DNA of 36,811 nt from Holophagaceae bacterium (GTDB taxonomy: Bacteria; Acidobacteriota; Holophagae; Holophagales; Holophagaceae): the NCBI GenBank assembly GCA_025361955.1, contig JANYIU010000168.1, positions 1 through 36,811 on the forward strand, read 5' to 3'. Made by a program: the position numbers and the translations under genes. Shown piece by piece: positions 6,029-33,134 of the stretch. The first letter of the stretch is position 1, and every line of letters begins with the position of its first letter. The notes beneath the pieces are model-generated. The model did no database searches and was not told where the DNA came from. It saw only the letters and a list, made by a program, of their open reading frames with translations.

Positions 6029-7125
6029 CAGATCTGGAAGTGCTTTCGCAGGATGCCCGCCATCTCATGGATAGGTGCCACCTGGTCGACGCAACCCCGC
6101 TCGAAGGCCGCCCGGGGCATGCCGTAGACGACGCAGGTCTCCTCGGCCTCCGCCAGGGTGTGAGCCCCCTTGGCCTTGAGCAGCTCCATGCCCTTGGCCC
6201 CATCGGCGCCCATGCCGGTGAGAATCATCGCGAGCACTTGGCGGGGGCAGTTATCCGCGACGCTCTGGAACAGCACATCGACGCTGGGCCGATGGATGCT
6301 GGTCGCAGGTTCGGGGTTCAGCTCGAGGAGGATCTGGCTGCCGCGCTGCCGGTAGTACATGTGCACGCCCCCCGGGGCGATGTAGACGATGCCTGGATGG
6401 GCGGTTTCGCCATGTTCGGCCTCCTTGACCTCCACCTGGCAAATGTTGTCCAGCCGCTCTGCGAAAGGTTTCGTGAAGGAGGCTGGCATGTGCTGGACGA
6501 TGAGGCAGGGGACGGGCAAGGCTTTCGGCAGACCCGGCAGGAGATCCTGGAGGGCCTTGGGCCCCCCGGTGGAACAGCCGATGACGAGCAGCTCGGCCAT
6601 GGGACTGCCCTTCAGGAGCCCGGGTGCGTCGGCGGCGGGTCGCGCGTGCCAAGGCCGGGAAACGACCGGGACCGGCAGGCTGGGACGGACGCCGGCGGGG
6701 GGCGGCGGGGTCTTGCGGAAGCGCGGGCTCCGGGCCAGTTTCCGGACTTTTTCCTGAAGATCTTGCTGAATCTGCAGAATGGCCTGATTGGCGAAACTGC
6801 TTTCTTTCGGGATGAAATCCAGGGCACCCAAGGCCAAGGCCTCCAGGGTGGCTTGGGCTCCTTCCTGGGTGAGGCTGGAAACCATCAGTACCGGCAGGGG
6901 CATCTCCACCATGATCCGTTTCAGGCAGGCGAGGCCGTCCATGCGCGGCATCTCCACATCCAGGGTGACGATGTCCGGCTTCAGCTGGGCGATCTTCTCC
7001 AGGGCATCCTGGCCATCCCGCGCCGATCCGATCACTTCAATGTCCTCGGCGGCCACGAGCATCCGCTCGAGGGCCTTCCGCATGAAGGGACTGTCATCGA
7101 CGATCAGGACGCGGATTCGTTCCAT
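6028..7125 (-). CDS. cheB: Chemotaxis response regulator protein-glutamate methylesterase
   Basis: Receiver domain (RVLIVDDSPFMRKALERML, DIVTLDVEMPRMDGL) plus CheB catalytic domain (VIGCSTGGPKALQDLLPGLP, VQHMPASFTKPFAERLD, MILTGMGADGAKGMELLKAKGAHTLAE). Confidence 0.97.
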   Translation of the reverse strand: MERIRVLIVDDSPFMRKALERMLVAAEDIEVIGSARDGQDALEKIAQLKPDIVTLDVEMPRMDGLACLKRIMVEMPLPVLMVSSLTQEGAQATLEALALGALDFIPKESSFANQAILQIQQDLQEKVRKLARSPRFRKTPPPPAGVRPSLPVPVVSRPWHARPAADAPGLLKGSPMAELLVIGCSTGGPKALQDLLPGLPKALPVPCLIVQHMPASFTKPFAERLDNICQVEVKEAEHGETAHPGIVYIAPGGVHMYYRQRGSQILLELNPEPATSIHRPSVDVLFQSVADNCPRQVLAMILTGMGADGAKGMELLKAKGAHTLAEAEETCVVYGMPRAAFERGCVDQVAPIHEMAGILRKHFQI

Positions 7126-7131
7126 TCGGGT

Positions 7132-7989
7132 TCAATCCTGGAAAGCGAGGTTGACGAAGGAGATGGCGTGTTCCAGCTCATCGTCGATGCTGAAGGTGAT
7201 TCTTTCAATATCCAAATTCTCGGGGGGGATGCCACTGAAGACCTCGCGAAAGGCTGGCAGTTCCTCCAGGCTGAACGCCAGAGTCTCGTCGGCTGGGCTG
7301 TTGGGGAGACGGGCCCGGACCAGGAGATCGCTTAGATTGATGAGATTGGACAGAAAGGCACCGGGTGGGGGGGAATGGTGATCCCGGAGCACCTCCACCA
7401 ACACATCGGCAAAACCCCAGTTCACCGCCACCATGGCCCCCACCTCCGCATGGGTGAGGCCGAGCAGCTCCGCCTCAATTTCGTAGCCCACGCGTCCGGC
7501 CTGGATGGCGGCGACGACCGGGGCATATTCTTCGGGGAAGCAGCTGTCCAGGGCGATCTTGCCAATATCGTGCAGGAGCCCGGCCAGGAAGGCCGATTCT
7601 TCGAGAGCTCGGCGCTGCAGAAGTCGGCAGAGGCCCTTGGCGGTCATGCCAACGGCGACGGAGTGCTGCCACAGCCGCAGGGGATCCAGGTGGGAGGCTC
7701 CCTGAAAGGTCCGGATGATGGCGGTGGTGCGTCCCAGGTTGAGCATGGCGTCGAAACCCAGGCGCAAGACAGCGCTCCGGAGATCCGTCACGCGGTTGTC
7801 CCCGGCATATAGAACGGAGTTGGCCAACCGCAGCATGGTGGCGGAGAGGGGTGGATCCTTGGTCAGGATGCCCAGAATCCGGTCCACGGTGCAGCGCTCA
7901 TCCGTCACCGCTTGGCCCATGGCCACCACCGTCGTGGGGAGGCTGGGGAGGGTCTTGACCCTGAGCCGGACGCTGGCCTCGGTGATCAT
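7132..7989 (-). CDS. HDOD domain protein (first of tandem pair)
   Basis: LPSLPTTVVAMGQAVTDERCTVDRILGILTKDPPLSATMLRLANSVLY...FLAGLLHDIGKIAL; HDOD pattern. Confidence 0.88.
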   Translation of the reverse strand: MITEASVRLRVKTLPSLPTTVVAMGQAVTDERCTVDRILGILTKDPPLSATMLRLANSVLYAGDNRVTDLRSAVLRLGFDAMLNLGRTTAIIRTFQGASHLDPLRLWQHSVAVGMTAKGLCRLLQRRALEESAFLAGLLHDIGKIALDSCFPEEYAPVVAAIQAGRVGYEIEAELLGLTHAEVGAMVAVNWGFADVLVEVLRDHHSPPPGAFLSNLINLSDLLVRARLPNSPADETLAFSLEELPAFREVFSGIPPENLDIERITFSIDDELEHAISFVNLAFQD

Positions 7990-7990
7990 G

Positions 7991-8863
7991 TCAGAATTCC
8001 GTGAGAAGGGACTTGTCCATCTCGAGGACTTGCAGGACGGCTTCGCGATGGTCTTCGAGCTGTTCGGGAGTGAGATTCAGGATCTCCAGGGCTTGCTGGG
8101 TTGGCAGCGCCAGAGACTCTGGGCGGCCGATGCCAATCTTCTGATTCAGGGCCATTTGATTCCCCAAGGCCACCAGGGCGGTCAGGGAACGGCTCTCAGG
8201 TGGCGCATCCAGAGGTTCGTGATGCCAGCGCGCGGTCTGTTCGATGCTTCGCGCCAGATTCCAGGATCTCAGCAGGGCCTCGCCCACCATGGAGTGATCG
8301 AAGCCGAAGATCTCCAATTCCATGTCCAGGCAATCGCCTTGACCGTTGTAGATCGTGCGGATCATGGCTCCATACCGGTCCGGGAACTTGATGCCCATCA
8401 CGGATTTACCGATGTCGTGCATCAATCCGGCAAGGAAGATCTCCTCCGTCTGTGGGAAGCGGAGCAGCTTGCCGTAGGCCCGCCCTGCCATGGCTGTGGC
8501 CAGGGCATGTTCCCACAGCAGGCGTTCCTGGAGCCCCACGCTCCCCCGGCTATAAAGGTTCTTGGCGCTGGAGGCGATGACTACGCTCTTGATGGTGGAA
8601 AAACCCAGGGTCATGATGGCCTGGGTGACGGTCTTCACCTCGCGCATCATCGCGAACATCGCGGAATTGGCGATTTTGAGGATCTGGGACGCGAGCGCTT
8701 GGTCCGTGGAAATGACCCGTTGGAGTTCATCGGCGGTTGAATCAGGATCCGCCACGATCCGCAGCACCTGGGCCGCCACCTGGGGAAGGGGGGGCAGGTC
8801 GCCGAGATTCGTGATCAGTTCCTGAGGGGTGATGGGCATTGCCTTCGTCTCCGTTGCTTTCAA
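7991..8863 (-). CDS. HDOD domain protein (second of tandem pair)
   Basis: LGDLPPLPQVAAQVLRIVADPDSTADELQRVISTDQALASQILKIANSAMFAM...FLAGLMHDIGKSVMG; HDOD pattern. Confidence 0.9.
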   Translation of the reverse strand: MKATETKAMPITPQELITNLGDLPPLPQVAAQVLRIVADPDSTADELQRVISTDQALASQILKIANSAMFAMMREVKTVTQAIMTLGFSTIKSVVIASSAKNLYSRGSVGLQERLLWEHALATAMAGRAYGKLLRFPQTEEIFLAGLMHDIGKSVMGIKFPDRYGAMIRTIYNGQGDCLDMELEIFGFDHSMVGEALLRSWNLARSIEQTARWHHEPLDAPPESRSLTALVALGNQMALNQKIGIGRPESLALPTQQALEILNLTPEQLEDHREAVLQVLEMDKSLLTEF

Positions 8864-9717
8864 TCCCGTTTGCGGTAACCCATGGCCTTGGTGAAGTGCA
8901 TCAATTCGAAACCGATATTGAACGAGTGGATGGATTCGCTATGACCCACGAGCAGGAAACCCTTGGGCTGAAGCTGTTCGTGGAAGCCTCGCAACACCTT
9001 GATTTTTACGGCTTCATCGAAGTAGATGAGGACATTTCGGCAGAAGATGACCTCGAAGCTCCCAAGGGCCTTGTAGGCGGAGTATTCGACCAGATTGACG
9101 AGTTTCAAGGATACCAGTTGCTTCAGCTCCGGCTTCACTTCGTAGCAGTCCTGAGAAAGCAGGTTGAAGTGCTGCTTGAGTTGGGGGCCGGTCAGGTTGC
9201 GCAGCGTATAGCTGCCATAGATCCCTTCCTTGGCCTGGGCCAGCACCTTCTCGCTGATGTCCGTGGCGATGATCTCCACCAGCATTCCTTTGAGCAGGGT
9301 GTCCTTCGCTTCGGCACAGATCATGGCGAGGGTGTAGGGTTCCTCCCCGGACGAGCAGGCTGCGGACCAGATCCTCAGTTTGCTAGAGCCCTTGGCCTTA
9401 GCCAGGGCGATGGCCTCGGGCAGGACGATGCGCTGGAAGGCCTCGATCTGGGGGGGATTCCGCCAGAAACTGGTCTCATTGGTGGTGATTTCAATGAATA
9501 GTTGTTTAAGTTCTTCTTTGCCCATGGGGCCTTGAAGCAGCTCCAGATAGCCCTGGTAAGTCTTGATATTCACCCCCACCAACCTGCGCGCGAGGCGATT
9601 CTCCAGGAAATACTGCTTGGCTTCGGCAAAGTAGATGCCAGTCCGGGCGTAGATGAAATCTCTCATCGCCAGGAAATCCGGGAGGCTCATTGGTGGGTTG
9701 GTGACTTGAAGGGCCAT
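8860..9717 (-). CDS. cheR: Chemotaxis protein methyltransferase
   Basis: DFLAMRDFIYARTGIYFAEAKQYFLENRLARRL, TTNETSFWRNP, RIWSAACSSGEEPYTLAM, VIFCRNVLIYFDE, GFLLVGHSES. Start at ATG 9717 (MALQVTNPP); the longer ORF to 10152 is antisense read-through over acpS. Confidence 0.95.
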   Translation of the reverse strand: MALQVTNPPMSLPDFLAMRDFIYARTGIYFAEAKQYFLENRLARRLVGVNIKTYQGYLELLQGPMGKEELKQLFIEITTNETSFWRNPPQIEAFQRIVLPEAIALAKAKGSSKLRIWSAACSSGEEPYTLAMICAEAKDTLLKGMLVEIIATDISEKVLAQAKEGIYGSYTLRNLTGPQLKQHFNLLSQDCYEVKPELKQLVSLKLVNLVEYSAYKALGSFEVIFCRNVLIYFDEAVKIKVLRGFHEQLQPKGFLLVGHSESIHSFNIGFELMHFTKAMGYRKRD

Positions 9718-9761
9718 GCACGTCGTCCTAACATCCGGAATCGGCCGGGATCGGCAGAGCA

Positions 9762-10145
9762 TTAATCGTGGCGAGTTGGATCTCCTTCCAGGATGACTAC
9801 CGCAAAGGCCATTCCGGAATCGTGGCTGATGCTTCCATGCAGGCGTGCAATGCCTTTCCGCTGCATCTTCTCGGCGAGTAACCCCTCGGTCCATAGGCGC
9901 CCATTGCGGAAGCGGAGCTCCTTCCAGGACCAACCATCGAGGCCCACGCCAAGGGCCTTGCCGAATGCTTCTCGCAGGGCCCAGCGCCCGGCGAGCCGTT
10001 CTGGAAGCCTCTGCCGGTTGCCATTCAGCAAGTACTCGGCTTCCTCGGGGGCCAGGATCCTGTGGATTGGCTTTTCTCCGAAACGGTCCATGAGGTGGAC
10101 CCATCGGGCCGCAGGGCAGATGTCTGTTCCAAGGCCTTGGATCAA
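9762..10145 (-). CDS. acpS: Holo-[acyl-carrier-protein] synthase
   Basis: MIQGLGTDICPAARW...RILAPEEAEYL...LAGRWALREAFGKALGVGL...LHGSISHDSGMAFAVVILE; 127 aa, AcpS-like. Confidence 0.9.
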   Translation of the reverse strand: MIQGLGTDICPAARWVHLMDRFGEKPIHRILAPEEAEYLLNGNRQRLPERLAGRWALREAFGKALGVGLDGWSWKELRFRNGRLWTEGLLAEKMQRKGIARLHGSISHDSGMAFAVVILEGDPTRHD

Positions 10146-10338
10146 GGGTCACCCTCCGGGATCGGAAGAGTTAAGATACCCGAAGGGATGGGGGAACGTC
10201 TGCGGCTTGCCGTTGTGATTCCATCCACCAGGGTTGTGACCCGATACACACGGGGCGGAATCAATACTGCCACCGGCCGAAGTAAGTATTTCTAGTCATT
10301 TTGGCAGCTTGAAGCCTTGGAAACTGAGGAGCGCGACC

Positions 10339-11733
10339 ATGCCCATACTGAAAGAGAAACCCAGACCCTTCCTGGTACCCGAGTACTGCAAAGGCTGCGG
10401 CCGATGTGTCAGCGTGTGCGTGAAGGGCTGCATCGCCTTCGCCGATGAGATCAACCCAGCTACGGGTATCATCCCGATCGTGCTGGATCTGGAGAAATGC
10501 ACCGGCTGCGGTCTGTGCATCGATGCCTGTCCAGAGCCCTATGGTCTGCGCGCGATGGCCCAGGACGAAGCCTACGAACTCCAGGATCCCGCCAAGCTCT
10601 TCGGAGCCAAGCAGAGCGCGGCCCCGGAGCCCGTGGACATCCCGGCCCAGCAAGTGGCCTTGCCGAAGACTCAGCCCCTCATCATCAAGGGCAATTATGC
10701 TTCCGCGGTGGGCGCACTGTTGGCGGGCTGCCGCCACTTCTATGGCTATCCCATCACCCCGTCCACCGAGGGTGCCGAGTTGATGGCCAAGCTGCTCCCG
10801 AAACTGAATGGCGTGTTCCTTCAGGCCGTTTCTGAAGTCGCCACCGTGAACCACATGTATGGCACCGGCGGCGCCGGTCTCCCCACGATGACCTTCACCT
10901 CCAGCCCCGGGTTTTCCCTGATGCTGGAAGGCATCTCCTATATGATCGGGGCCGAGGTCCCCGGAGTGTTCGTAAACGTCATGCGTGGCGGCCCCGGTTT
11001 GGGGAACATCGCACCTGAGCAATCCGATGTGAAGCTGGCCTGCCGCGGGCTTGGCCACGGGCACACCCACTGCATCACGCTTATGCCAAGCACGCCCCAG
11101 GAAATGCTCGACTATTCCATGCAGGCCTTCGAACTCAGTTTCAAGTACCGGAACCCCGTGATTGTCTTGGCCGACGGCTACCTGGGCCAGATGACTGGAA
11201 AGGTTCAGTTGCCCGCTCAAATGGTCAAGGCAGGAATTCCCAAGTGGGCCGTCTATGGGGATCGGAGCCATCGGGGAAACCTCATCTCCTCCATCCAGCT
11301 CCAGGAAACGGACCTGGAAAAGTTCAATGCCCATCTGGAAGAGAAGTACCAGTCCATGAAGGTCGAGGCCAGGTCCGAGTCCTACCTGACCGAGGATGCG
11401 GAAATTCTGCTGGTGGCCTGCAACACGCCGGCCCGTGCTGCTAAGGGCGCGGTCAAGAGCCTTCGGGATCTGGGCATCAAGGCGGGTCTGTTCCGGCCCA
11501 TCACTATCTGGCCGTTCCCATCCAAGCAGCTCCAGGCCCTGCTCCCCAAGATCAAACATCTGGTGGTGGTTGAGGCCAACGCGGGCGGGCAAATCCTGGA
11601 CGAACTCCGGTTGAACATGAGTCAGGTCGGAGTGGAGAAGCTCCCCCCCATCACCCACGTGCGCCGTTTTGGCGGGATGCTGCCCCAGCAGACCGAAATC
11701 GTCGACCACGTGAAATCCATCCTCGCCAAGTAA
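10339..11733 (+). CDS. 2-oxoacid:ferredoxin oxidoreductase (KOR/VOR type), fused ferredoxin (delta)-alpha subunit
   Basis: MPILKEKPRPF start with upstream GAGGA; two 4Fe-4S motifs (CKGCGRCVSVCVKGC, CTGCGLCIDACPEP) followed by the alpha domain (KGNYASAVGALLAGCRHFYGYPITPSTEGAELM...NVMRGGPGLGN). Confidence 0.92.
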   Translation: MPILKEKPRPFLVPEYCKGCGRCVSVCVKGCIAFADEINPATGIIPIVLDLEKCTGCGLCIDACPEPYGLRAMAQDEAYELQDPAKLFGAKQSAAPEPVDIPAQQVALPKTQPLIIKGNYASAVGALLAGCRHFYGYPITPSTEGAELMAKLLPKLNGVFLQAVSEVATVNHMYGTGGAGLPTMTFTSSPGFSLMLEGISYMIGAEVPGVFVNVMRGGPGLGNIAPEQSDVKLACRGLGHGHTHCITLMPSTPQEMLDYSMQAFELSFKYRNPVIVLADGYLGQMTGKVQLPAQMVKAGIPKWAVYGDRSHRGNLISSIQLQETDLEKFNAHLEEKYQSMKVEARSESYLTEDAEILLVACNTPARAAKGAVKSLRDLGIKAGLFRPITIWPFPSKQLQALLPKIKHLVVVEANAGGQILDELRLNMSQVGVEKLPPITHVRRFGGMLPQQTEIVDHVKSILAK

Positions 11734-11742
11734 GGAGGCCCT

Positions 11743-13176
11743 ATGTCCGTTTTCTATGACAAGTTTGAGCGTCACGCCCACGGCGAGGGCCTTAAGGGCC
11801 AGTCCACCCACTACTGTGCAGGCTGCGGTCACGGGCTCGCTCACAAGTATCTTGCCGACGCCATCGAAGAACTGGACATCCAGGACAGCACTGTCCTGGT
11901 GAGCCCCGTGGGCTGCTCGGTCTTCGCCTACTACTACTTCAACACTGGCAACACCCAGGCTGCCCATGGCCGCGCCGCCGCTGTGGCCCTTGGCCATAAG
12001 ATGGCCAACCCTGAGGCCACCGTCATTTCCTACCAGGGCGACGGGGATCTGGCCTCCATCGGTCTCGCAGAAACAGTGGCCGCTGCCCAGCTGGGCGCCC
12101 CGATCACTGTCATCTTCATCAACAATGCCATCTATGGCATGACCGGCGGCCAGATGGCCCCCACCAGCCTCATGGGCCAGACCACCGCTACCAGCCCCAA
12201 AGGCCGGAACCGGTTCAATGGCGAGCCCATGAAGATGGCCGAGCTCATCGCCGGCCTTGACGGGCCGGTCTATGTCGAGCGGGTCGCCCTCTTCAGCCCT
12301 GCGGACCGCAAGAAGGCCGCCAGGGCCATCAAGAAGGCCGTCCAGCTGCAAAAGGAAGGCCGCGGCTATTCCTTCATCGAAGTGCTGGCCGAGTGTCCCA
12401 CCCATTTGAAGCTGATGCCCGACCAGGCCGAAAAGTGGGTCAAGGAGAACATGGTCCCGATCTTCCCCCTGGGGGTGAAGAAAGACACAACCGTCGAACC
12501 CTGGTTCAAGTTGCCCACCCCCAATTTCGAGGCTGAACCCCTCCTCCATGCCGTGGGTGCGAGTACCGAAGCCCAGAGCCGCTTCTGCAAGGCCTTCCCC
12601 ACCCACTTGAACCCGGTCGACATCAGCATGAAGTTGGCCGGTTCGGGGGGTGACGGTGCTCAGACGGCCGCCATGCTCGTGGCCACCGCCGCCATCAATG
12701 AAGGCTACGACGGCACGCACATTCCGAGCTACGGCCCTGAAAGCCGCGGCGGCACCAGTTATGCCGATGTCCATGTAGCCAAGGATGAGGTACTGAATCC
12801 CGCCAGCCCCACGCCGGACATCCTGCTCGCCTTTAACGCCCCGAGCCTCGCTAAGTTCGGCCTCACGGTGAAAAAGGGCGGCTTCATCATCTACGACAGT
12901 TCCGTCGCAAAGGATGTTAAGCCTGCGGATCCCAGCATCACGGTCGTGGCCGTGCCCTTCACGGAGATCGCCGCCGGTCTTGGCAAGCTGGTGGTGAAGA
13001 ACATCGTGGCCCTCGGCGCCCTCCAGGCTGCCACGAACCTCTTCCCGAAAGAGACCTTCATCACCGCCATCAAGGGAGCTCTCAAGGAAAAGGCCAGTCT
13101 GATTCCGCTTAACGAACAGGCCTTCCAAGCCGGCATGGATGCCGCCAAGGCATTCCTGGCCACCAAGAAGAAGTAG
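11743..13176 (+). CDS. 2-oxoacid:ferredoxin oxidoreductase (KOR/VOR type), fused beta-gamma subunit
   Basis: N-terminal TPP-binding beta domain (HYCAGCGHGLAHKYLADAI, SYQGDGDLASIGLAETVAAA, FINNAIYGMTGGQMAPTSL) continuing into a gamma domain (MKLAGSGGDGAQTAAMLVATAAINEGYDGTHIPSYGPESRGGTSYADVHVAKDEV). Confidence 0.93.
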   Translation: MSVFYDKFERHAHGEGLKGQSTHYCAGCGHGLAHKYLADAIEELDIQDSTVLVSPVGCSVFAYYYFNTGNTQAAHGRAAAVALGHKMANPEATVISYQGDGDLASIGLAETVAAAQLGAPITVIFINNAIYGMTGGQMAPTSLMGQTTATSPKGRNRFNGEPMKMAELIAGLDGPVYVERVALFSPADRKKAARAIKKAVQLQKEGRGYSFIEVLAECPTHLKLMPDQAEKWVKENMVPIFPLGVKKDTTVEPWFKLPTPNFEAEPLLHAVGASTEAQSRFCKAFPTHLNPVDISMKLAGSGGDGAQTAAMLVATAAINEGYDGTHIPSYGPESRGGTSYADVHVAKDEVLNPASPTPDILLAFNAPSLAKFGLTVKKGGFIIYDSSVAKDVKPADPSITVVAVPFTEIAAGLGKLVVKNIVALGALQAATNLFPKETFITAIKGALKEKASLIPLNEQAFQAGMDAAKAFLATKKK

Positions 13177-16073: not shown

Positions 16074-17654
16074 CTACTCTGCCTTCCAAGTGGCCGTCGC
16101 GGCGCCGAATCTCTGCCCCATGACGTAGCAGGGAACCGTCAGCAGGACCACGACCTCGCCCGTATCCCGGGCATAGGTCTGAACGAGAAAATCCAGGGCG
16201 GACTGTTCCGAGTAGTTCAGGTCGCAACCGGCTTGCACGAAGTCCGCCCTGGCCGCCCGTTCGCTCAGGTTGGCCGCCTGAGCGAGGCCTACGCGCGCGC
16301 CTCGCAAGGAGGCACCCAGGTAGAACTTCTTACAGCGGTTCGTGAGCAGGTCGATGGCGTGGTTGCCCGTCCAGTCCTTGCATACCTTGCTGGGATGGAT
16401 GGGGATGTAGCCGTTCAGATCGATGATGGTCGCCGTGTTCACCATCGGTTCGCGCGCCATCATCGCATCGATGAGCCGCATGAATTCCTTGTCCACGAGG
16501 GCGTCATAGGCGGTTCCGAACTTGGGCGGATCAAAGCCGCTGGGCGGAACCCGGCTGATATCGAAGAGCCGCGACAGAGAGTAGGTAGCTGCTCCTTCGT
16601 ATTCGAAATAGTGGTACTCCAGCAGGTCGTTCAGGGAGATCTGCTCTTGCCGGAGCAGCTCCTCGAAATAGTCCTGGGCTTGCCTCGACAGGTTTCGCAG
16701 CAACGCGAGGACTCTGCAGAAGACAGTGTCCGTCTGGATGCGGCCCAGGTGGATATAGGCCCCCTCGGATAGCGCGGCCAGATCCTCGGTGGCCTTGACC
16801 ACCAGCCTGGCTTCGGACTGGACCCCGTTGATGCTTTCGGTGGTGGAGCGGGAATGCGTCGACAGCATCTCCATCTGGGAGTTCTGCTCATTGACCGCCA
16901 CGGACACCTGCTGCATGTGTTGAGAGGATTCGCGCGCCAACTGGCTTATCGCCCCCAGCGAATTGCCCAGTTCGGTCGTGTGCTGGGAGGCGAGGTCGCC
17001 TAGTTCCTGGCTCTTGGCCACGGCACCTTGGACGGGCTGCAGCAGTGCGGTGATCTCGTCAATCAGCGTGCTTATATCGGACGTCTGGGCCCAGGAATGC
17101 TCCGCGAGTTTCTGCACTTCGGTGGCTACCACCGCGAAACCCCGACCGTGCACACCCGCGTGTGCGGCTTCGATCGCCGCATTTAGGGCGAGGAGCTTGG
17201 TCTGTTCGGAGATGCCATTGACAACCTGGGTGATCCGGGTGATATCGAGAATCTTGTCCGTCAGAACATTCAGCCGACGGGCCATATCGTGTACCTGCTC
17301 CTGCAGGATCCGGTTCGCCTCAGACGCCTTGGCCCCCACTTCATGCCCGGATCGTGCGAGCTGGTCGACCTGCTCCCCGAGCTGCGCAGCCTGCCCGGCC
17401 TCGACTGCGACCTTCTGGATCCCGGCCTGGATCTGCCCGGCTGCCAGGGTCATCTTCTCCATGCCCTGGTAGGCCTGCTCGAGGTGAGAGGAGAGTTCCT
17501 TCAGGGCTTTCGCATTGCGGGCGGCGCCCACTCCGGTCTGCCCCACGACTCCGTCAAGTCCTTTGACCACCTGGAGGATATTTTCGTCGTTGTCAGTCGC
17601 TTGTACAAGGGGAGATGTCTTTTCCGAGATCCCAAGGGTTTGCCAGAAGGCCAT
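16074..17654 (-). CDS. Soluble methyl-accepting chemotaxis protein-type receptor with signalling domain N-terminal to a sensor-like domain
   Basis: ISEQTKLLALNAAIEAAHAGVHGRGFAVVATEVQKLAEHS is the canonical MCP tip; no hydrophobic TM segment seen; C-terminal MVNTATIIDLNGYIPIHPSKVCKDWTGN resembles sensor domains of other MCPs. Confidence 0.88.
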   Translation of the reverse strand: MAFWQTLGISEKTSPLVQATDNDENILQVVKGLDGVVGQTGVGAARNAKALKELSSHLEQAYQGMEKMTLAAGQIQAGIQKVAVEAGQAAQLGEQVDQLARSGHEVGAKASEANRILQEQVHDMARRLNVLTDKILDITRITQVVNGISEQTKLLALNAAIEAAHAGVHGRGFAVVATEVQKLAEHSWAQTSDISTLIDEITALLQPVQGAVAKSQELGDLASQHTTELGNSLGAISQLARESSQHMQQVSVAVNEQNSQMEMLSTHSRSTTESINGVQSEARLVVKATEDLAALSEGAYIHLGRIQTDTVFCRVLALLRNLSRQAQDYFEELLRQEQISLNDLLEYHYFEYEGAATYSLSRLFDISRVPPSGFDPPKFGTAYDALVDKEFMRLIDAMMAREPMVNTATIIDLNGYIPIHPSKVCKDWTGNHAIDLLTNRCKKFYLGASLRGARVGLAQAANLSERAARADFVQAGCDLNYSEQSALDFLVQTYARDTGEVVVLLTVPCYVMGQRFGAATATWKAE

Positions 17655-23903: not shown

Positions 23904-24695
23904 TCAGGCCTTCACGGACGTGATCCGTCCTTCCTGTTCCAGCTTGCCCAGCAGCCTGAGCAGGCCGTCCAGAATCGTGAGGGGATGGGGCGGGCAGCCT
24001 GGAATGAACAGATCTACCGGAACCACGCTGGACGCCCCGCCGAGCTGCTCCTCCTGGCGGTAGTAGGGACCACCACTGATGGCGCAGGCACCCACGGCGA
24101 TGACGATCTTGGGATCCGGCACGGCTGCGTAAGTCTTGCGGAGGGCCAGTTCCATATTGGCGGTAACGGGGCCGCAGACCAGCACAGCATCAGCGTGGCG
24201 GGGGGCTGCCACGTATTGGATGCCGAACCGGCCGAGATCCCAGGCCAGGGTCCCCAGCACGTTCACGTCTACCTCGCAACCGTTGCAGCCTCCGGCGCTC
24301 ACTACGCGGATCTTCAGGGATCGCCCAAAGAGGCGCATCAGTTCTGCGTTCAGCTTCTCGGCAAGCTGAAGTTCCTGGTCCGGGGCCAGCACCAGATGGT
24401 CCCGATCCCGGGTCGACAGACGGTGGTCCCGGGTAAAGGCGATGGCGCCCTTGGGGCAGGCCTCGACGCACAGGTCGCAGAAGAGGCATTTGCCCAGATC
24501 AATGTCGGGGCCGGTAGGACCTAGTTCGATGGCCTCGGTGGGGCAGGCCTCGGCGCAGACATGGCAAACCTCGGGACAGGCCTGGGCATCGATCCGGGGC
24601 AACCCCCGGAACCGTCCCGGCAGCACCGGGATCGTCTTGGGATAGGGAAGGGTGCGATGTCCCTGGCGCCAGCGAGAAAGCAGGATGTGGATCAT
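23904..24695 (-). CDS. Fusion of 2x[4Fe-4S] ferredoxin (HycF/NuoI-like) and small subunit (HycG/NuoB-like) of the complex I/group-4 hydrogenase-like complex
   Basis: MIHILLSRWRQGHRTLPYP...CPEVCHVCAEACP...CLFCDLCVEACP then GGCNGCEVDVN...CGPVT...GACAISGGPYY...FIPGCPPHP. Confidence 0.9.
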   Translation of the reverse strand: MIHILLSRWRQGHRTLPYPKTIPVLPGRFRGLPRIDAQACPEVCHVCAEACPTEAIELGPTGPDIDLGKCLFCDLCVEACPKGAIAFTRDHRLSTRDRDHLVLAPDQELQLAEKLNAELMRLFGRSLKIRVVSAGGCNGCEVDVNVLGTLAWDLGRFGIQYVAAPRHADAVLVCGPVTANMELALRKTYAAVPDPKIVIAVGACAISGGPYYRQEEQLGGASSVVPVDLFIPGCPPHPLTILDGLLRLLGKLEQEGRITSVKA

Positions 24696-26212
24696 CAGAG
24701 GTCGTGTCCGCAGTAGGAGAGATTGAAACTCTTGTTGCACAAAGGAAAGTCGGAGATCTGCTCGCCGCGCAGGGCCAGGGCCAAGCCGAACCAGTTGTGG
24801 AAGGAGGGATCGACGATCTTGTAGCGGGCGAAGCGGCCGCTGGCATCCGTGACGGCCAGATGCAGGATCTCCCCCCTCCACCCTTCCGTGAGGGAGACGC
24901 AAAGGCTCTCCGGTGCCAGTGCCATAGTCCCAGTCGGCTTCGGATCGGTGGCCGAATCCGCGAGCGCTTCGAAGGCCTCCGCCAGGAAGGCATGGCTCGC
25001 CTGCAGTTCGCGCCAGCGCACCCAGGCCCGGGAGTGCACGTTGCCGCTCTGGGCCAACCCCAAGGCGACGGGATGCTCGGCATAGGGACCAAAGGGATGA
25101 TCCTTGCGAACGTCCTGCTCGATGCCACAGGCGCGAGCCGGAACGCCCACCAGGCCCACCTCTCGGGCCTGGATGGGATCCACGAAACCGGCGGCCTCGA
25201 AACGATTGAGCACGGAAGCGGCGCCCCAGAGCAATTCAATGGCGTTCTGGGTGTCTCCCCAGATCTGCGCCAGCCGGGAGGTCAGCATTTTGGCAACCTC
25301 GGGTTCCAAATCCACGCGAAGGCCTCCGGGTCGCAGCAAGTCGCGCCCCAGGCGGCTGCCGCAGAGTTCGGCGGTGAGGTTCAGCCAGTCGCCGCGGATT
25401 CGGCCACAGAAGGAAGCAGTGGGCAGGAAGCCCGCATCCCCCGCCAGGGCGCCGAGATCGCCGGTGTGGTTGGCACACCGTTCCAACTCCAGGGCGATGC
25501 CCCGTACCCATTGGGAGCGGGGGGGCACCTCGATTCCGGCCAAACCCTCGAGCAGCTGGCAGTAGGCCCAGCCATGGCCGAGGGTGGTGTCCCCAGCGAC
25601 GGTTTCCGCAAATTTCAGACTCAAGGGGTGGGGACCCCCGAGCATGGCCCGTTCGATGCCCCGGTGCTGATAGCCCAGGGCGATTTCCAGATGGAAGACC
25701 GTTTCGCCATGGCACTGGAAACGGAAATGCCCCGGTTCGATGACTCCGGCATGCACAGGCCCCACGGCCACTTCATGGACTTCTTCGCCCTCGACCCGGA
25801 AGAAGTCGGTGACGCCGGGTTCGATCGGGCCCGTGCGCTGCCAGGCATCCCGGCCTTCCACCCACGAGGCGTGGTAGCGCACCGGCTTGAACCAGGGGTG
25901 CTTCTCGGGCACGATGCCGAACTGTTCGGCCAGCTCCCGCTCGAAGAGATGCGCCTGGGGGCAATGGGGCGTGAGGGAGGGATAGTGGGGATGGTCCAGG
26001 CGGGTGCGCCCGATCCACAGCGCCCCGGCTGGGTCATCGGCCAGCACGGCGAAAAGACGCAGCTCCGCATCGGCGCAAAGACAGGCCAGACGTTTGCCTG
26101 AGTTGACTGCTTGGAGGATCTCATCCTGAAACTCCGGGAAAAGGAGCTCCGGGACATCCTTCATAAGCAAGGCGCGACCATTCCGGCAGGGGGCGAACTG
26201 AATGTCACTCAT
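24695..26212 (-). CDS. HycE/NuoCD-like large subunit lacking NiFe-ligand cysteine motifs
   Basis: NuoC-like N-domain (HLFERELAEQFGIVPEKHPW) fused to a NuoD/HycE-like domain (IALGYQHRGIERAMLG...AGDTTLGHGWAYCQ...IVDPSFHNWFGLALALRGEQISDFPLCNKSFNLSYCGHDL). Confidence 0.88.
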   Translation of the reverse strand: MSDIQFAPCRNGRALLMKDVPELLFPEFQDEILQAVNSGKRLACLCADAELRLFAVLADDPAGALWIGRTRLDHPHYPSLTPHCPQAHLFERELAEQFGIVPEKHPWFKPVRYHASWVEGRDAWQRTGPIEPGVTDFFRVEGEEVHEVAVGPVHAGVIEPGHFRFQCHGETVFHLEIALGYQHRGIERAMLGGPHPLSLKFAETVAGDTTLGHGWAYCQLLEGLAGIEVPPRSQWVRGIALELERCANHTGDLGALAGDAGFLPTASFCGRIRGDWLNLTAELCGSRLGRDLLRPGGLRVDLEPEVAKMLTSRLAQIWGDTQNAIELLWGAASVLNRFEAAGFVDPIQAREVGLVGVPARACGIEQDVRKDHPFGPYAEHPVALGLAQSGNVHSRAWVRWRELQASHAFLAEAFEALADSATDPKPTGTMALAPESLCVSLTEGWRGEILHLAVTDASGRFARYKIVDPSFHNWFGLALALRGEQISDFPLCNKSFNLSYCGHDL

Positions 26213-27657
26213 GGTTTTCCCTCCACCCAGCTGCCGGCGCTCTGAAGCATCGTTTCAAGGGGCTGGGGCAGCCAGAGCCCAAGGACCAGGGACAATCCGA
26301 GAGCCAAGATCAAGGGGGCCGTCGTGGCGAAAGTGTCCTTATAGGGGGTGCGTACCCGCTTCGCATCCGGCGTGCCGAAGATCATCTTGACCACCGTATC
26401 GCTCATCGCCAAGAAGACGCCGCAGAGCAGCAGCAGGAAGGTTCCACCCAGCCAGAGATGGTTCCGGGAGAAGGCAGCGGCGACGATGTTGAATTCGCTG
26501 ATGAAAGGGGCGAAGGGAGGCGTGCCGGTGATGGCGAGAAAGGCGATCAGGAAAAGCCATCCGGAGATGGGCGTGCGCCGGATGGCGCCGGTGACGAAGG
26601 GCAGCTGTCGGCTCGCATAGCTCCGATGGATATTGCCCGCCGACAGAAAGAGCACGCTCTTGACGAGTGCGTTCGCCGCGAGGTGGTAGAGAGCGAAGCG
26701 GGCCGCGGTGCCACCGATGCCAATGCCGAACACGAGGATGCCCATGTGCTCGACGCTGGAGTAGGCGAGCATGCGCTTGAAGTCCAATTGGCGGACCATG
26801 AACACCATCGCCCAGGCCATGGAAAGTACGCCGAAGCCGATCATGAGCTCCTGGGCGAAGGCGGCCTCCCCGGCCGCGGCTACGACCGCGTAAATCCGAA
26901 GCAGGGCCAGGAAGGCGCAGCTGGTCACGCCGCCGGCCAGGAGGGCCCCAATGACCCCAGGGGTCTCGCCGTAAGCGTCTGGTTTCCAGGTATGGAGCGG
27001 GGCCAAACCCATCTTCGTGCCATAGCCGATCAGAGTGAGCACGAAGCCCGCCCTCAGCCAAGGCCGGGAAAGATGCTCCGCCTCCTGCATCAGCCGAGTG
27101 TATTGCAGGGGTTCGTTGATATCGCCCATATGGGCGGCGTAGGCGATGAAGAAAGTACCCAGTAGGGCGAGGGCGATACCTACGGAGCCGATGATCAGGT
27201 ACTTCCACGCGGCCTCCAGGGAGTGCCGGTTGTGGTTGAAGTAGATCAGCGGAGCCGTGGTCAGGGTCGTGGTTTCCATGGCCACCCAGACCAACCCAGG
27301 GTGGCGTGCCTGGGCCACCAAGGAGGCCATGCTCAGGAAGCACAGGAAGCAGACGATGAAGATCCGGTGGTCCCGGTCGGGGCGTAGAGCCAGGTAGGCC
27401 GGTGCATAGAGGGCGCAGATGCAGAAGAGCACGCTGACCACCAGCAGCACCCAGCCGCCCAGGGCGTCCAGCCCCAGCCAGACGCCGGGAGGAAGCGTCT
27501 CCCATCCCCGCAGGGAGGCGAGGATGAGCGTGACCACTAGGCCAAGTAGATGGAAAATCGCGGTCCCTGGCAGGAGCCGGATCCGCAGAGAATCGGAAGA
27601 GGTCCTCCAGGCGAGGATGGCAGCGAAAAGAGGGAGAAAAATCAAATACCAGGCCAT
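26209..27657 (-). CDS. HyfF/NuoN-like proton-translocating antiporter-type subunit
   Basis: Polytopic; FVLTLIGYGTKMGLAPLHTWKPDAYGETPGVIGALLAGG and RMLAYSSVEHMGI signatures of the Mrp/NuoLMN family. Confidence 0.9.
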   Translation of the reverse strand: MAWYLIFLPLFAAILAWRTSSDSLRIRLLPGTAIFHLLGLVVTLILASLRGWETLPPGVWLGLDALGGWVLLVVSVLFCICALYAPAYLALRPDRDHRIFIVCFLCFLSMASLVAQARHPGLVWVAMETTTLTTAPLIYFNHNRHSLEAAWKYLIIGSVGIALALLGTFFIAYAAHMGDINEPLQYTRLMQEAEHLSRPWLRAGFVLTLIGYGTKMGLAPLHTWKPDAYGETPGVIGALLAGGVTSCAFLALLRIYAVVAAAGEAAFAQELMIGFGVLSMAWAMVFMVRQLDFKRMLAYSSVEHMGILVFGIGIGGTAARFALYHLAANALVKSVLFLSAGNIHRSYASRQLPFVTGAIRRTPISGWLFLIAFLAITGTPPFAPFISEFNIVAAAFSRNHLWLGGTFLLLLCGVFLAMSDTVVKMIFGTPDAKRVRTPYKDTFATTAPLILALGLSLVLGLWLPQPLETMLQSAGSWVEGKP

Positions 27658-27660
27658 TGC

Positions 27661-28296
27661 TCAATCCTTCAGTTCGGCCAGGTGGCGGGTGTCGATGGAA
27701 TCGAAGGCCACGCGGATGTGGTTGATGACGATTCCCATGACGAAGATGCCCACGAAGAGGTCCAGCAGGATGCCGGCTTCCACCAGTAAGGGCATCTCTT
27801 CCACCAGCAGCAGGGCGAACAGATAGATGCCGTTTTCCAGCACCAGGTAGCCCACCACCTGCGTGAGCGCCTTGCGCCGCGAGACCAGCAGCAGGAACCC
27901 GGTAAAGAGAGTGGCAAGGGAGGCTGGCACGAACAGTGGATTGGCCGTTCCCAGCTTCAAGGGCAGGTTGTGGGCCAGCAGCATGCTGAGGCCCGTCCCG
28001 AGGGCGCACAGCAGCAGCGACGCCGAGAACCCGATGTAGGGCCCGACCTCCCGATCGATCTTGACCTGCTGGAGGGCGCGCCGGAACAGAGAGGGAATCA
28101 GCCATCCCTTCACCGCCACGGCGGCCGCAGCCAGCAGAACGATGTGGGGAATTCGCCAAAGGCCCATGGTCAGCGGGAGAAGGCCGAGCAGGACCCCCTG
28201 GAGTACCGCGAACTGGATGGATTTATTGATGCGGCTGGTGGTCACCAAGGAGAAATTGGTGAGCATGATCAGGGCGATCAGAAAATCGGAGAGCAT
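27661..28296 (-). CDS. HyfE-like membrane subunit
   Basis: Hydrophobic 211 aa; KALTQVVGYLVLENGIYLFALLLVEEMPLLVEAGILLDLFVGIFVMGIVI, NuoK/HyfE-like. Confidence 0.85.
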   Translation of the reverse strand: MLSDFLIALIMLTNFSLVTTSRINKSIQFAVLQGVLLGLLPLTMGLWRIPHIVLLAAAAVAVKGWLIPSLFRRALQQVKIDREVGPYIGFSASLLLCALGTGLSMLLAHNLPLKLGTANPLFVPASLATLFTGFLLLVSRRKALTQVVGYLVLENGIYLFALLLVEEMPLLVEAGILLDLFVGIFVMGIVINHIRVAFDSIDTRHLAELKD

Positions 28297-28305
28297 GGGT
28301 TTCTC

Positions 28306-29232
28306 CTATACCAGCAGGAGCAGGAAGGCGAAGGCCGTCGCCAGGACGCTGGCCATCAGGAACTGGGGCACCTGGTTCATCCGGAACCGCGCGGTGATGC
28401 TTTCGATCACCCCCACGACGACAGCGAACAAACCCAAGGCCAGGAAGTAGGCGGCCCAGTCGAGCCAGGGATTGTCGGTCCTCGGCAGGAGCGGTCCCAG
28501 GATCAGCGCCGCGAGCACGAGCAGCTTCAGGCTGGCCCCATAAAGCACCAGCGCGAGGGGGCGTCCGGAATGATCCAATACCATGACCTCGTGGATCATG
28601 GTCAATTCCAAATGCGTGTTCGGATCATCTACGGGGATGCGGGCGTTTTCCGCGAGGTAGACGATCATCCAGCCCGCCAGCACCAGGATGAACGGGCCGG
28701 TGGCCCTGGAGATGGCGAAGCCCGGCGAGGCCAGCATCGCGGACAGGGATAAGCTTCCCGAGGATTTCGCCAAAGCCGCGAAGCCGAGGAACAGGGCGGG
28801 TTCGGCGAGGGCCGAGAAGGTCACTTCCCGAGCGGCCCCCATGCCCTCGAAGCTCGAGCCCGTGTCCAGGGCCGATAGCACGGTGAGGAACCGGGCCAGT
28901 CCGAACAGGTAGGCGAACAGAATCACATCCCCCTGGAAGTGGATGGGCGCCGGGGAATGACCGAAGGGTACCAACAGGGCGGCCACCAGCCCCGCGGCCA
29001 CCGTGGCCACGGGACCCGCCAGGAAGATCCAGGTGGTGGTTTGGCTGAACACTGCCTGTTTCCGGGCAAGTTTCGCCAGATCGTAGTAGAGCTGCAGGAC
29101 TGGAGGGCCGCAACGTCCCGCCACCAGAGCCTTGACCTTGTTGATGAGGCCCGGGATCAGCGGCCCCAGCAGCAGGGCTGTCAGGAGATGGAGGGCGATG
29201 TGAATGATACGGAACAAGAGGGACTCGGACAT
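28306..29232 (-). CDS. HyfC/HycD/NuoH-like membrane subunit
   Basis: GLINKVKALVAGRCGPPVLQLYYDLAKLARK; ARIPVDDPNTHLELTMIHEVMVLDHSG. Confidence 0.92.
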   Translation of the reverse strand: MSESLLFRIIHIALHLLTALLLGPLIPGLINKVKALVAGRCGPPVLQLYYDLAKLARKQAVFSQTTTWIFLAGPVATVAAGLVAALLVPFGHSPAPIHFQGDVILFAYLFGLARFLTVLSALDTGSSFEGMGAAREVTFSALAEPALFLGFAALAKSSGSLSLSAMLASPGFAISRATGPFILVLAGWMIVYLAENARIPVDDPNTHLELTMIHEVMVLDHSGRPLALVLYGASLKLLVLAALILGPLLPRTDNPWLDWAAYFLALGLFAVVVGVIESITARFRMNQVPQFLMASVLATAFAFLLLLV

Positions 29233-29235
29233 GAT

Positions 29236-31176
29236 TCAGGCCACCATCCAGATCAAAAGGGTGAGCAGGGTGATCAAGATGTAGAGCAGGTATAGGGGCA
29301 GCTGCCCACTCTGCAGGACGCGCAGCAGCGTGAAGCCGCGGGCGACAAGATCCAGCCCGGGGGCGCCGACTCGGTCCAGCACCGGGTCGGGCACATGGCT
29401 ATGGAAGCGGCGGGCAGTCGGGAAGAACGCCGCGATCCTCCGGAAATGGAACTGAGGCCAGAGCACGAACCGCAGCCCGGAAACCAGTCCATCCGCGAAC
29501 GAGGAGGCCGAGTATTGCATCCTCGGACTTGCCGCCAGGTAGCCGCAATCCCAGGTCGGCACATCCTTGCGCGCGGAGGCGGGTCTTGCCCAGCGCCAGC
29601 AGAGGCAGGCAAGCCCCAGGAGCAGCGCGGCCATGGCGGACAGAAGACCGAGGTGCGCAAAACCCGCCAGGCTGGGTAGGGCCTGCACGCCGGAGGCGCT
29701 GGAGACCAGACGATCCAAGGCCGGGATGAGCAGGACGGGAGCCAGCCCCAGCGCTATGCAGAGGCCTGCCAGCAGAACCATGGGACCGCGCATGGCGCGT
29801 GGAGATTCCTGCACTTTTGACGCCTCTGCGGAGCGCGGTTGTCCCAGAAAGACGGTCCCATAGGCCTTGGCGAAGCAGGCTAGGGCCAAGGCCCCGATGA
29901 TCGCCAGGGCCGAGAGGGCGATGACGGTCCAAGGAAGGCGTGACAGGGCGAGTCCCTGGAAGGCAGCCAGATAGATCAACCATTCGCTGACGAAGCCGTT
30001 GAGGGGAGGCAGGCCGCAGATGGCCCAGGCGCCGATCAGGAAGGTACCTGCGGTGACCGGCATGGAGTTGGAGAGGCCCCCCATCTGTTCCAGATTCCGG
30101 GTCCCCATGCCACGAATCACGGAACCCGCGTTCAGGAATAGCAGGCCCTTGAAAAGGCCGTGATTGAGGACGTGGAGGAGTCCTCCCGCGTAGCCCAGGA
30201 CTTGGACGCTCACGGAGCCGATGCTCTTGCCGAGGGTCCCGATGCCGAGACCCAACAGGATGATCCCGATGTTCTCGATGGAATGGTAGGCCAGGAGCCG
30301 CTTCAGGTCGTGCTGTCCCAGGGCGAAGGCCACCCCCAGGATCCCCGAAATCGCCCCCAGGACCACCAGGAGGCCCCCCCACCACAGGGGCGGGTCCGGG
30401 ATCCAGGACAGCAGCCGGATCAATCCCAGGATCCCCATCTTGAGGAACACCCCGGACATGATTGAGGAGACATGACTCGGCGCGGCGGCGTGGGCCGGAG
30501 GCAGCCAGAAATGGAAGGGGAAAATGCCCGCCTTGATGCCGAACCCCACCAGGAACAGAACAAAGGTCAAGCTGCCGCGCCCGGTGGACGCGAAGCCCGA
30601 GGAGAAGCCGGTAAAGGCGAAACTGCCGAGGGTGGAGGCCATGAGGGAGAACGCCCCGAACAGGCAAAGGGTTCCAGTGTGGGTGGCGATGAGGTAGATC
30701 CAGCCGGCCCGTTGGGTCTCAGGCTCCCGGTCCTCGGTGATGACCAGGAGAAAGGCGGTGATCGCCATGCCTTCCCAGGCCAGCATGAACGTAACCGCAT
30801 GGGCCGCCGCTACCAGGAGCGCAAGGAAGGCCGTGGTGAGGCCATAGAGCAGCCGGACCCTGCGGGCCCCCTCGTGCGTGTCCCCGAAATAGGCGACCCC
30901 ATAGACTGAGCCACAGGCAGCCAGCAGCAGGACCGGGATCAGGAAAAAAGCCGCGATCGGATCGAACCGGAGCAGGCCAGGGGAGCCAAGGGGTGTGAAG
31001 GGAAGGCCCTGGGTCCAGACCGCGCCTCCGTACAGAGTCCAAACGGAGGAGGCGAGTCCAAACACCGCCGCCAGGCTGAGCATCCCGGCCGCGACTTCCC
31101 CGCCCCGCTTCCGGAGCAGCAGACCTGGCACACCCGAGAGGGCCGCCAGCAGCACCGCGAGCCCGAACAAGATCAT
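29236..31176 (-). CDS. HyfB/HycC-like antiporter-type subunit (copy 2)
   Basis: VGFGIKAGIFPFHFWLPPAHAAAPSHVSSIMSGVFLKMGILG, KRLLAYHSIENIGIILLGLG; C-terminal TWDCGYLAASPRMQYSASSFADG. Confidence 0.92.
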   Translation of the reverse strand: MILFGLAVLLAALSGVPGLLLRKRGGEVAAGMLSLAAVFGLASSVWTLYGGAVWTQGLPFTPLGSPGLLRFDPIAAFFLIPVLLLAACGSVYGVAYFGDTHEGARRVRLLYGLTTAFLALLVAAAHAVTFMLAWEGMAITAFLLVITEDREPETQRAGWIYLIATHTGTLCLFGAFSLMASTLGSFAFTGFSSGFASTGRGSLTFVLFLVGFGIKAGIFPFHFWLPPAHAAAPSHVSSIMSGVFLKMGILGLIRLLSWIPDPPLWWGGLLVVLGAISGILGVAFALGQHDLKRLLAYHSIENIGIILLGLGIGTLGKSIGSVSVQVLGYAGGLLHVLNHGLFKGLLFLNAGSVIRGMGTRNLEQMGGLSNSMPVTAGTFLIGAWAICGLPPLNGFVSEWLIYLAAFQGLALSRLPWTVIALSALAIIGALALACFAKAYGTVFLGQPRSAEASKVQESPRAMRGPMVLLAGLCIALGLAPVLLIPALDRLVSSASGVQALPSLAGFAHLGLLSAMAALLLGLACLCWRWARPASARKDVPTWDCGYLAASPRMQYSASSFADGLVSGLRFVLWPQFHFRRIAAFFPTARRFHSHVPDPVLDRVGAPGLDLVARGFTLLRVLQSGQLPLYLLYILITLLTLLIWMVA

Positions 31177-33134
31177 CCCAGCAGCCTCGCTCTCACCAGC
31201 ATCCAGAGAAAGACGCCCAGAAGGGCCAGCAGAATGTAGAGAATGTAGAGCGACAGATGGCCGTGTTGGAGTTGGCGAAAGCGCAGCAGTCGCTCCGCGA
31301 GGCGATCAACCCGGGGTTCGACGAAGGCCTCGCCCACGGCGTCCTGGAATTCAGATCGGTAAGTGAGCGGCCGGGGAAAGACCGCTCTGACTCGGCGCAT
31401 CCGTTCCTTGCAGCCGGGCACGAGGGAGGCCCATCCGGCGGAGAAGGAAGAGGCCGTGTACTGCATGCGTGCCGTGGGTCGCGCGTAGCCGCAGTCCCAG
31501 GTCGGCGGCCGGGTCGTGAGGTTGCGCCTGGATCTGCGCAGCCATAGGAATCCCAGCGCACCCAGCACCAGCAAGAGGGCCAACATCCAGGAAAGCAGCG
31601 CCAAGTCCGGGCCGATCCCGAGCACGAGCAGGCCGGTAGCCTCCGGAGCCACGACGCCGACCACGTGATCCAAGAGGGGCAGCAGGAGCACGCTGCCGAG
31701 GCCCAAGCCAACGCAGAGCAGGGCCAGGATCACCATGGGTAGCATCATGGCCTTGCCGGGATCGTGGGCATGTTCCACTGCCGATGTGCGGGGTTCTCCC
31801 AGGAACACGAACCCGAAGAACTTGGCGAAGGCGACGGCGGCAAGGCCTCCCGAAATAGCGAGGGCGGGCAAAGCAAGGCACGCAGCCCAGGATTCGCCTC
31901 GCTGGAAAGAGGACAAAAGCCCCCGGTAGAGGAACCATTCACTGAGGAAGGCGTTGAAGGGCGGGAGCGCCGCCACGGCCAGCACGGCTGGGAAAATCAC
32001 CAGGGCGGTCTGGGGCATGCGCTTGGCCAATCCCCCCAGGGCCTCGATCTTGCGGGTCCCCGTGGCGTGCAGCAGGGAGCCCGCCCCGAAGAACAGCAGG
32101 CCCTTGAATACCGAGTGATTCCAGATGTGGAACACCGCCCCCGCGAACCCCAGGGCGGTGAGCCAGGACTCATGGTAGGCCCGCCCGGTCCAGCCGAGGC
32201 CCAGTCCGATGCCGATGATGCCGATGTTTTCGATGCTTGAATAAGCCAGCAGGCGTTTGAAGTCGCTCTGGGCCAAGGCATTGATGACCCCGTAGACCGC
32301 TGTCACCGCTCCCAGGGTCAGGACCAGTCCGCCCAGGAAGGCTGGGGTGGTGGGGACCAGCCCGGAAAGGCGGATGATGCCGTAGAGGCCCGCCTTCAGC
32401 ATCACGCCCGACAGGATCGCGGACACATGACTCGGGGCCCAGGCGTGAGCCTCCGGTAGCCAGAAGTGCAGGGGCAGGAAGCCCGCCTTGATGCCGAAGC
32501 CGAGCAGAGCCAGCACCATGATGGCTGAATCCAAGGACGAATCCGGCAGTCCCGGATGGGGAATCCAGAGCAAGTCCCCGCAGCGATGAGCCAGCAGAGC
32601 CACCGCCGCGATCAGCAGCAGCGTGCCGGTGTGGGTGCACATGAGGTAGATCCAGGAGGCCCGCTGGACCTGAGGTGTCCCGTGCTCGGTGCCGATGAGG
32701 AGGAAGGCGGACATCGCCATCACTTCCCAGGCCATGAGGAACAGGATTCCCTGTCGGGCGATGAACACCAGCATCAGGGAGGCTGCGAGCAGGCCGAATA
32801 GTCCCCGAACCGAGCGCCCGGTCACCATTGAGGTTGGCCAATATTCACTCTGGTAGATGATGCCGAGGCCAGCCACCAGATTGAGGGGCAGCAGAAAGGC
32901 GGCGGAAAGCGCGTCCACTTCGATGCGAGCAGGCAGCTTCCAGAAAACAAAATCCAGTCCGGAGGCGTTGCCAGTGATTAGCACATGGAGTGCGCCAACC
33001 ACAGCCAGGAGGGATCCCAAGACGCCCAGGCCCAGATAGAACCGTTCGTCCAAAAGTTTGAACAAAGGGATGAACGACGCGGCCAGCCAGCATCCCAAGG
33101 CCGCGAGGATCAGCACGATATCCAGCATTTGCAT
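31173..33134 (-). CDS. HyfB/HycC-like antiporter-type subunit (copy 1)
   Basis: Start MQMLDIVLILAALGCWL (33134) preferred over the ORF start 33380. LGFGIKAGFLPLHFWLPEAHAWAPSHVSAILSGVMLKAGLYG, KRLLAYSSIENIGIIGIGLG; TWDCGYARPTARMQYTASSFSAG. Confidence 0.9.
   Translation of the reverse strand: MQMLDIVLILAALGCWLAASFIPLFKLLDERFYLGLGVLGSLLAVVGALHVLITGNASGLDFVFWKLPARIEVDALSAAFLLPLNLVAGLGIIYQSEYWPTSMVTGRSVRGLFGLLAASLMLVFIARQGILFLMAWEVMAMSAFLLIGTEHGTPQVQRASWIYLMCTHTGTLLLIAAVALLAHRCGDLLWIPHPGLPDSSLDSAIMVLALLGFGIKAGFLPLHFWLPEAHAWAPSHVSAILSGVMLKAGLYGIIRLSGLVPTTPAFLGGLVLTLGAVTAVYGVINALAQSDFKRLLAYSSIENIGIIGIGLGLGWTGRAYHESWLTALGFAGAVFHIWNHSVFKGLLFFGAGSLLHATGTRKIEALGGLAKRMPQTALVIFPAVLAVAALPPFNAFLSEWFLYRGLLSSFQRGESWAACLALPALAISGGLAAVAFAKFFGFVFLGEPRTSAVEHAHDPGKAMMLPMVILALLCVGLGLGSVLLLPLLDHVVGVVAPEATGLLVLGIGPDLALLSWMLALLLVLGALGFLWLRRSRRNLTTRPPTWDCGYARPTARMQYTASSFSAGWASLVPGCKERMRRVRAVFPRPLTYRSEFQDAVGEAFVEPRVDRLAERLLRFRQLQHGHLSLYILYILLALLGVFLWMLVRARLLG

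Follow-up and report, generated by a model that had tools for sequence, protein, structure and literature searches.

The energy-converting hydrogenase-related (Ehr) complex is known from Geobacter sulfurreducens, in which the genes GSU0739-0745 encode the subunits EhrA-1, EhrA-2, EhrB, EhrC, EhrD, EhrL and EhrS (PMC7894505, PMC13194489), and it has also been reported from Sulfobacillus, Nitrospira and Margulisbacteria (PMC4378227, PMC10284858, PMC6349859). The published complexes share with the operon analysed here the number of seven genes, the two NuoL-like subunits and a large subunit without NiFe motifs (PMC7894505, PMC13194489, PMC4378227, PMC10284858, PMC6349859). No established substrate of Ehr was found in the literature. 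The present operon lies in a window (the whole stretch of DNA analysed, 36,811 nucleotides) that is part of contig C33 in the draft genome (3.06 Mb) of an uncultured Holophagaceae bacterium. It almost certainly encodes an Ehr complex and is thus a new member of a known family, as a preliminary description of the locus had proposed; the comparison with the Geobacter cluster, which it matches, is one of gene content as given in the papers (PMC7894505, PMC13194489). The genes, in order of transcription (33134 to 23904; HyfB, HyfB, HyfC, HyfE, HyfF, large, small), are:

31173..33134, minus strand: EhrA-1, first HyfB/NuoL-like antiporter subunit, 653 aa, ATG start at 33134
29236..31176, minus strand: EhrA-2, second HyfB/NuoL-like antiporter subunit, 646 aa
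28306..29232, minus strand: EhrB, HyfC/HycD/NuoH-like membrane subunit, 308 aa (NADHdh, E 1.6e-33)
27661..28296, minus strand: EhrC, HyfE-like membrane subunit, 211 aa
26209..27657, minus strand: EhrD, HyfF-like antiporter subunit, 482 aa (Proton_antipo_M, E 6.1e-43)
24695..26212, minus strand: EhrL, large subunit, NuoC plus NuoD/HycE-like, 505 aa (Complex1_30kDa and Complex1_49kDa)
23904..24695, minus strand: EhrS, small subunit, 263 aa (Fer4 and Oxidored_q6)

All seven open reading frames are intact. The two HyfB genes overlap by 4 bases, as do the HyfF and large subunit genes, the large and small subunit genes have 1 base in common, and gaps of 3, 9 and 3 bases separate the second HyfB from HyfC, HyfC from HyfE and HyfE from HyfF, respectively. 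The tightly packed same-strand arrangement described earlier was recovered at the same positions, and Pfam and NCBIfam agreed with the subunit types assigned then. EhrA-1 and EhrA-2 match Proton_antipo_M in Pfam (E 4.7e-50 and 7.3e-57), EhrC matches the NCBIfam model 'hydrogenase 4 membrane subunit' with E 4.4e-25, under the cut-off of the model, and EhrS has a NuoB/HycG-like proximal-cluster domain, to which two 4Fe-4S ferredoxin motifs are fused. A group-4-related large subunit and NuoH-like, HyfE-like and antiporter-like subunits, the features by which Ehr is recognised, are encoded in one operon. The operon stands alone, since its neighbours are a divergent lumazine synthase gene upstream and a gene for an aminoacyl-tRNA editing protein downstream. 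The nearest large subunits, approximately 68-75% identical, are from Holophagaceae including Geothrix; a literature search gave no paper describing Ehr in Geothrix or Holophaga.

Compared to E. coli hydrogenase-4 (Hyf), homologues of HyfB, C, E, F, G and I are present in identical order, but there is no homologue of HyfA, HyfD or HyfJ, HyfH and HyfI are fused, HyfB occurs twice and the NiFe ligands are missing. The nearest solved large subunit, by both sequence and fold, is that of E. coli formate hydrogenlyase (Hyc; PDB 7z0s), with 155 bits and a TM-score of 0.85 to HycE. Unlike EhrL, HycE is extended at its C-terminus and carries a cysteine in each of the four ligand columns, and the membrane arm of Hyc differs in having one antiporter-like subunit and a Leu in HycC at the position of the TM7 Lys. 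Respiratory complex I (NuoCD, NuoB, NuoH, NuoLMN) has the same fold and homologous subunits, whereas the operon has no NADH module, a hydrogenase-type proximal CxxC and no quinone-head His. Pfam and NCBIfam searches found no NuoEFG module in the operon, and none recurs in the related loci. In one genome (G137) NuoG-, NuoF- and NuoD-like genes were observed approximately 4 kb from the Ehr operon (L129:85-3918).

In an alignment with E. coli HycE and HyfG, which served as positive controls, EhrL was found to have Ala206, Thr209, Ser499 and Gly502 in the four ligand columns, so the reported lack of NiFe ligand motifs is correct and every one of the four cysteines has been replaced. Across 81 sequences the first column is A62/S14/C5 and the second T65/S14/A2, and in the 80 of these readable at the third and fourth columns they are S and G without exception. 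CxxC pairs at the ligand columns were detected in the controls (HycE, HyfG, the loci L121-L123 described below and the genome's own hydrogenase) and not in EhrL. The Pfam search gave no match of EhrL to NiFeSe_Hases (PF00374), the only matches in the genome being on contigs C263 and C320. The best internal control is the genome's own group-4 hydrogenase, which keeps the four cysteines and is split by a contig break over C263 (L002) and C192 (L005) with an identical overlap of 47 residues; a NuoA-like subunit adjoins this catalytic enzyme. Two NuoD genes are located on C320 and C142. The caution against automatic annotation as hydrogenase-4 or formate hydrogenlyase was fair: these names would mislead because the corresponding NCBIfam models match far under their cut-offs. 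The earlier remark that the window has no hyp genes agrees with the reading frames scanned, but it is uninformative on the cell, since the genome encodes HypD (C322) and a catalytic hydrogenase (C263/C192).

The same order of genes was found in 80 independent loci from many phyla (Acidobacteriota, Planctomycetota, Thermodesulfobacteriota, Lentisphaerota, Spirochaetota and others) and the arrangement is therefore not due to chance. EhrL was matched at E <= 1e-100 in 59/297 Acidobacteriota genomes, the weakest of these matches including proteins with four cysteines. The latter are encoded in three Acidobacteriota loci (L121, L122 and L123), which are second copies in genomes also holding a cysteine-less one (G245, G005 and G098). 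They share with the window operon the gene order B-C-E-F-L-S and the tail motif DFPLxNKSF (the tail reads DFPLVNKSFELCYSCTDR or a near copy), and they differ from it in the intact cysteines (ICGVC/LCGAC and LCYSC/LCYAC). An upstream HTH-EIIA gene is absent from these loci. The large subunits of L121 (3917-11398), L122 and L123 end in ...CTDR, and as there is no C-terminal extension, a maturation protease would not be required.

A tree was calculated without the ligand columns and rooted on NuoD. In it, L121-L123 and all cysteine-less sequences formed one clade (100/100) nested among hydrogenases, which makes the loss of the NiFe ligands a derived state. EhrL grouped with the cysteine-less sequences, apart from the catalytic enzymes. 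The branch that sets the cysteine-less group to one side is modestly supported (88/76), and a single loss of the ligands is thus likely, not proven. The number of HyfB genes varies between one and two among Ehr operons. The first HyfB copies of Acidobacteriota, including EhrA-1, form a clade of their own (SH-aLRT 99) apart from the second copies, which indicates an old duplication in Acidobacteriota rather than repeated recent ones; L125, a same-family member from a single-contig genome, has one HyfB only.

The loss of all four metal ligands, together with the patchy occurrence of Ehr (15 of the 27 sampled Holophagaceae genomes), could be read as the decay of a hydrogenase into a non-functional remnant, and the Geobacter Ehr has been suggested to be non-functional (PMC13194489). 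This explanation is hardly credible for the present operon, in which the order and all reading frames are kept. Moreover, no other stretch of 18 residues in EhrL is as conserved as its last one (488-505), the segment holding two of the NiFe ligands in hydrogenases (0.98 compared to a mean of 0.70 in a set thinned to 27 sequences of <65% identity from across phyla), and the pocket is therefore selected, not decayed. The 80 recruited loci resemble the query overall by construction; this conservation is, however, not a direct artefact of recruitment, since the segment was absent from the peptide patterns used. EhrL ends exactly in ...CGHDL, and the same C-terminal end residue was found in 81/81 EhrL proteins. 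A near-invariant set of residues is formed by His154, Glu159, His162, Cys167, His183, Asp208, His213, Asn493-Lys494-Ser495 and Ser499-Tyr500, usually with Cys492, Cys501 and His503, and by the fixed C-terminal carboxylate. Cys492, Cys501 and His503 hardly vary within the main Ehr clade but do so in the basal clades (SYSGND, SYSGCD and SYSGQD tails), and thus mark a subgroup. AlphaFold gave a good fold for EhrL alone (pLDDT 88.8); as the confidence of the pocket loops 151-164 and 500-505 was <50, we claim no distances between Cys492, Cys501 or other residues.

Upstream of related operons we found a gene encoding a fusion of an HTH domain with a PTS EIIA-2 domain. Among main-clade operons outside Holophagaceae with at least 900 bases of upstream sequence it lies directly upstream in 41/43, the median distance to the first HyfB match being 135 bases. 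It was not found upstream in Holophagaceae, in the catalytic sister operons or in the basal Ehr clades, and when one of the fusion proteins was used as a query against this genome there was no match; in lacking the gene the window operon differs from most relatives outside its family. The fusion was observed as HTH_17 plus PTS_EIIA_2 in L052 (2318-3022) and 40 further loci, which come from many phyla, and L034 and L038 carry two in tandem. No paper linking Ehr with EIIA or PtsN was found in the literature search. We tentatively propose, as a possibility well short of an even chance, that the emptied NiFe pocket is no relic but a new site of catalysis, in which the near-invariant residues have replaced the metal and act on a substrate other than H2, possibly via a disulfide or another metal, and that in most phyla a dedicated HTH-EIIA protein controls the operon. 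EIIA(Ntr) proteins are regulators of potassium transport in E. coli, and the upstream gene could also suggest a machine mainly for ion homeostasis, in which the redox part only gates the antiporter under control of the PTS(Ntr) pathway. We regard this as very unlikely, as Holophagaceae, including this genome, are without the gene and all redox clusters are conserved.

EhrS contains 12 cluster cysteines, eight ferredoxin-type and four for the proximal cluster, the latter in a hydrogenase-type CxxC and not the CC of NuoB. EhrA-1 and EhrA-2 keep the TM5 Glu, TM7 Lys, TM8 Lys and TM12 Glu, and EhrD keeps the TM5 Glu, TM7 Lys and TM12 Glu with a Ser at the TM8 Lys position. The TM5 Glu, TM7 Lys and TM12 Glu are used for ion movement in complex I, and judged from these residues ion pumping by the Ehr complex is plausible. 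The best explanation, to which we give an even chance, is a ferredoxin-oxidising proton or sodium pump that reduces a quinone-like acceptor, of which we infer the donor, acceptor, pumping and direction. Electrons from reduced ferredoxin, supplied e.g. by the 2-oxoacid:ferredoxin oxidoreductases of the genome, would enter EhrS at its two ferredoxin-type 4Fe-4S clusters, and the proximal cluster would pass them to an acceptor bound in the former NiFe pocket, lined by its invariant, re-specified residues. The energy would drive proton or sodium pumping via EhrB/EhrC and the antiporter-like EhrA-1, EhrA-2 and EhrD. The most likely acceptor would be a membrane quinone. The acceptor is also the weakest point, because the position of the complex I quinone-head His is Ile158 in EhrL: the classical quinone site is not intact and a quinone would have to bind differently. 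Tyr217, common to hydrogenases, is present.

A soluble electron carrier fits the genomic data, because, across phyla, the operon has no recurrent neighbour that encodes a donor enzyme; the HTH-EIIA gene was the only one found to recur. Seven genes with a POR domain occur in the genome, one of them in the window, where a two-gene 2-oxoacid:ferredoxin oxidoreductase (Fer4 + POR_N + PFOR_II; TPP_enzyme_C + POR) is encoded at 10309-13176 on the plus strand. A 1007-aa open reading frame opposite these genes matched no Pfam family and is probably not a real gene. Elsewhere in the window, on the minus strand at 6028-10152 and 16074-17654, CheB, two HDOD proteins and CheR were observed in a row, with an MCP-type receptor further on. 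The presence of POR was rejected as a correlate of Ehr, being near universal (276/297 genomes). A strong RnfC match did not occur together with Ehr in any genome (0 observed compared to approximately 6 expected, Fisher p 0.0009, 297 Acidobacteriota genomes, 0/59 Ehr-bearing). Such exclusion would be expected if both drain ferredoxin, but as significance is lost at the family level (p 0.21), we keep it as a weak hint only.

Other partners have been considered for Ehr and its relatives. A link to formate, in which a cytoplasmic formate dehydrogenase docks on EhrS to give a formate-driven ion pump, has been proposed for Margulisbacteria and Saganbacteria (PMC6349859), and in Geobacter the abundance of the Ehr subunits was higher on formate than under conditions with hydrogen (PMC7894505). 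This genome encodes an FdhA above the NCBIfam cut-off. The gene is, however, located on C43 and not with the operon on C33, formate dehydrogenase genes are not recurrent neighbours of the operon in the 80 loci, and a linker subunit of the HycB/HyfA type is missing, so we consider formate an unlikely donor. Relatives without a functioning NiFe site have been solved or published, including Mbx (PMC6349859), and by analogy Ehr could couple the oxidation of ferredoxin to ion pumping by reducing sulfane sulfur or NADP in the emptied site. We think this quite improbable: closest homology to MbsL/MbxL was not found, the match to 6u8y_L (MbsL) being much weaker, at 62 bits, than those to HycE (155), Nqo4 (115) and MbhL (114), and the pocket motif NKSFNLSYCGHDL is partly common to the catalytic hydrogenase clade with the same operon.

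The most useful of the new findings are that the emptied pocket is constrained, that matched catalytic sister operons exist and that an HTH-EIIA gene is associated with Ehr. The sisters, having the same operon, form a matched pair with Ehr in which the change of a hydrogenase into something different can be studied, and the question of when the Ehr complex is made can be approached through the conserved HTH-EIIA gene. As Geothrix is in culture and has the operon, Ehr is testable there. If Ehr conserves energy from ferredoxin, it would take the place of Rnf in lineages that lack the latter.
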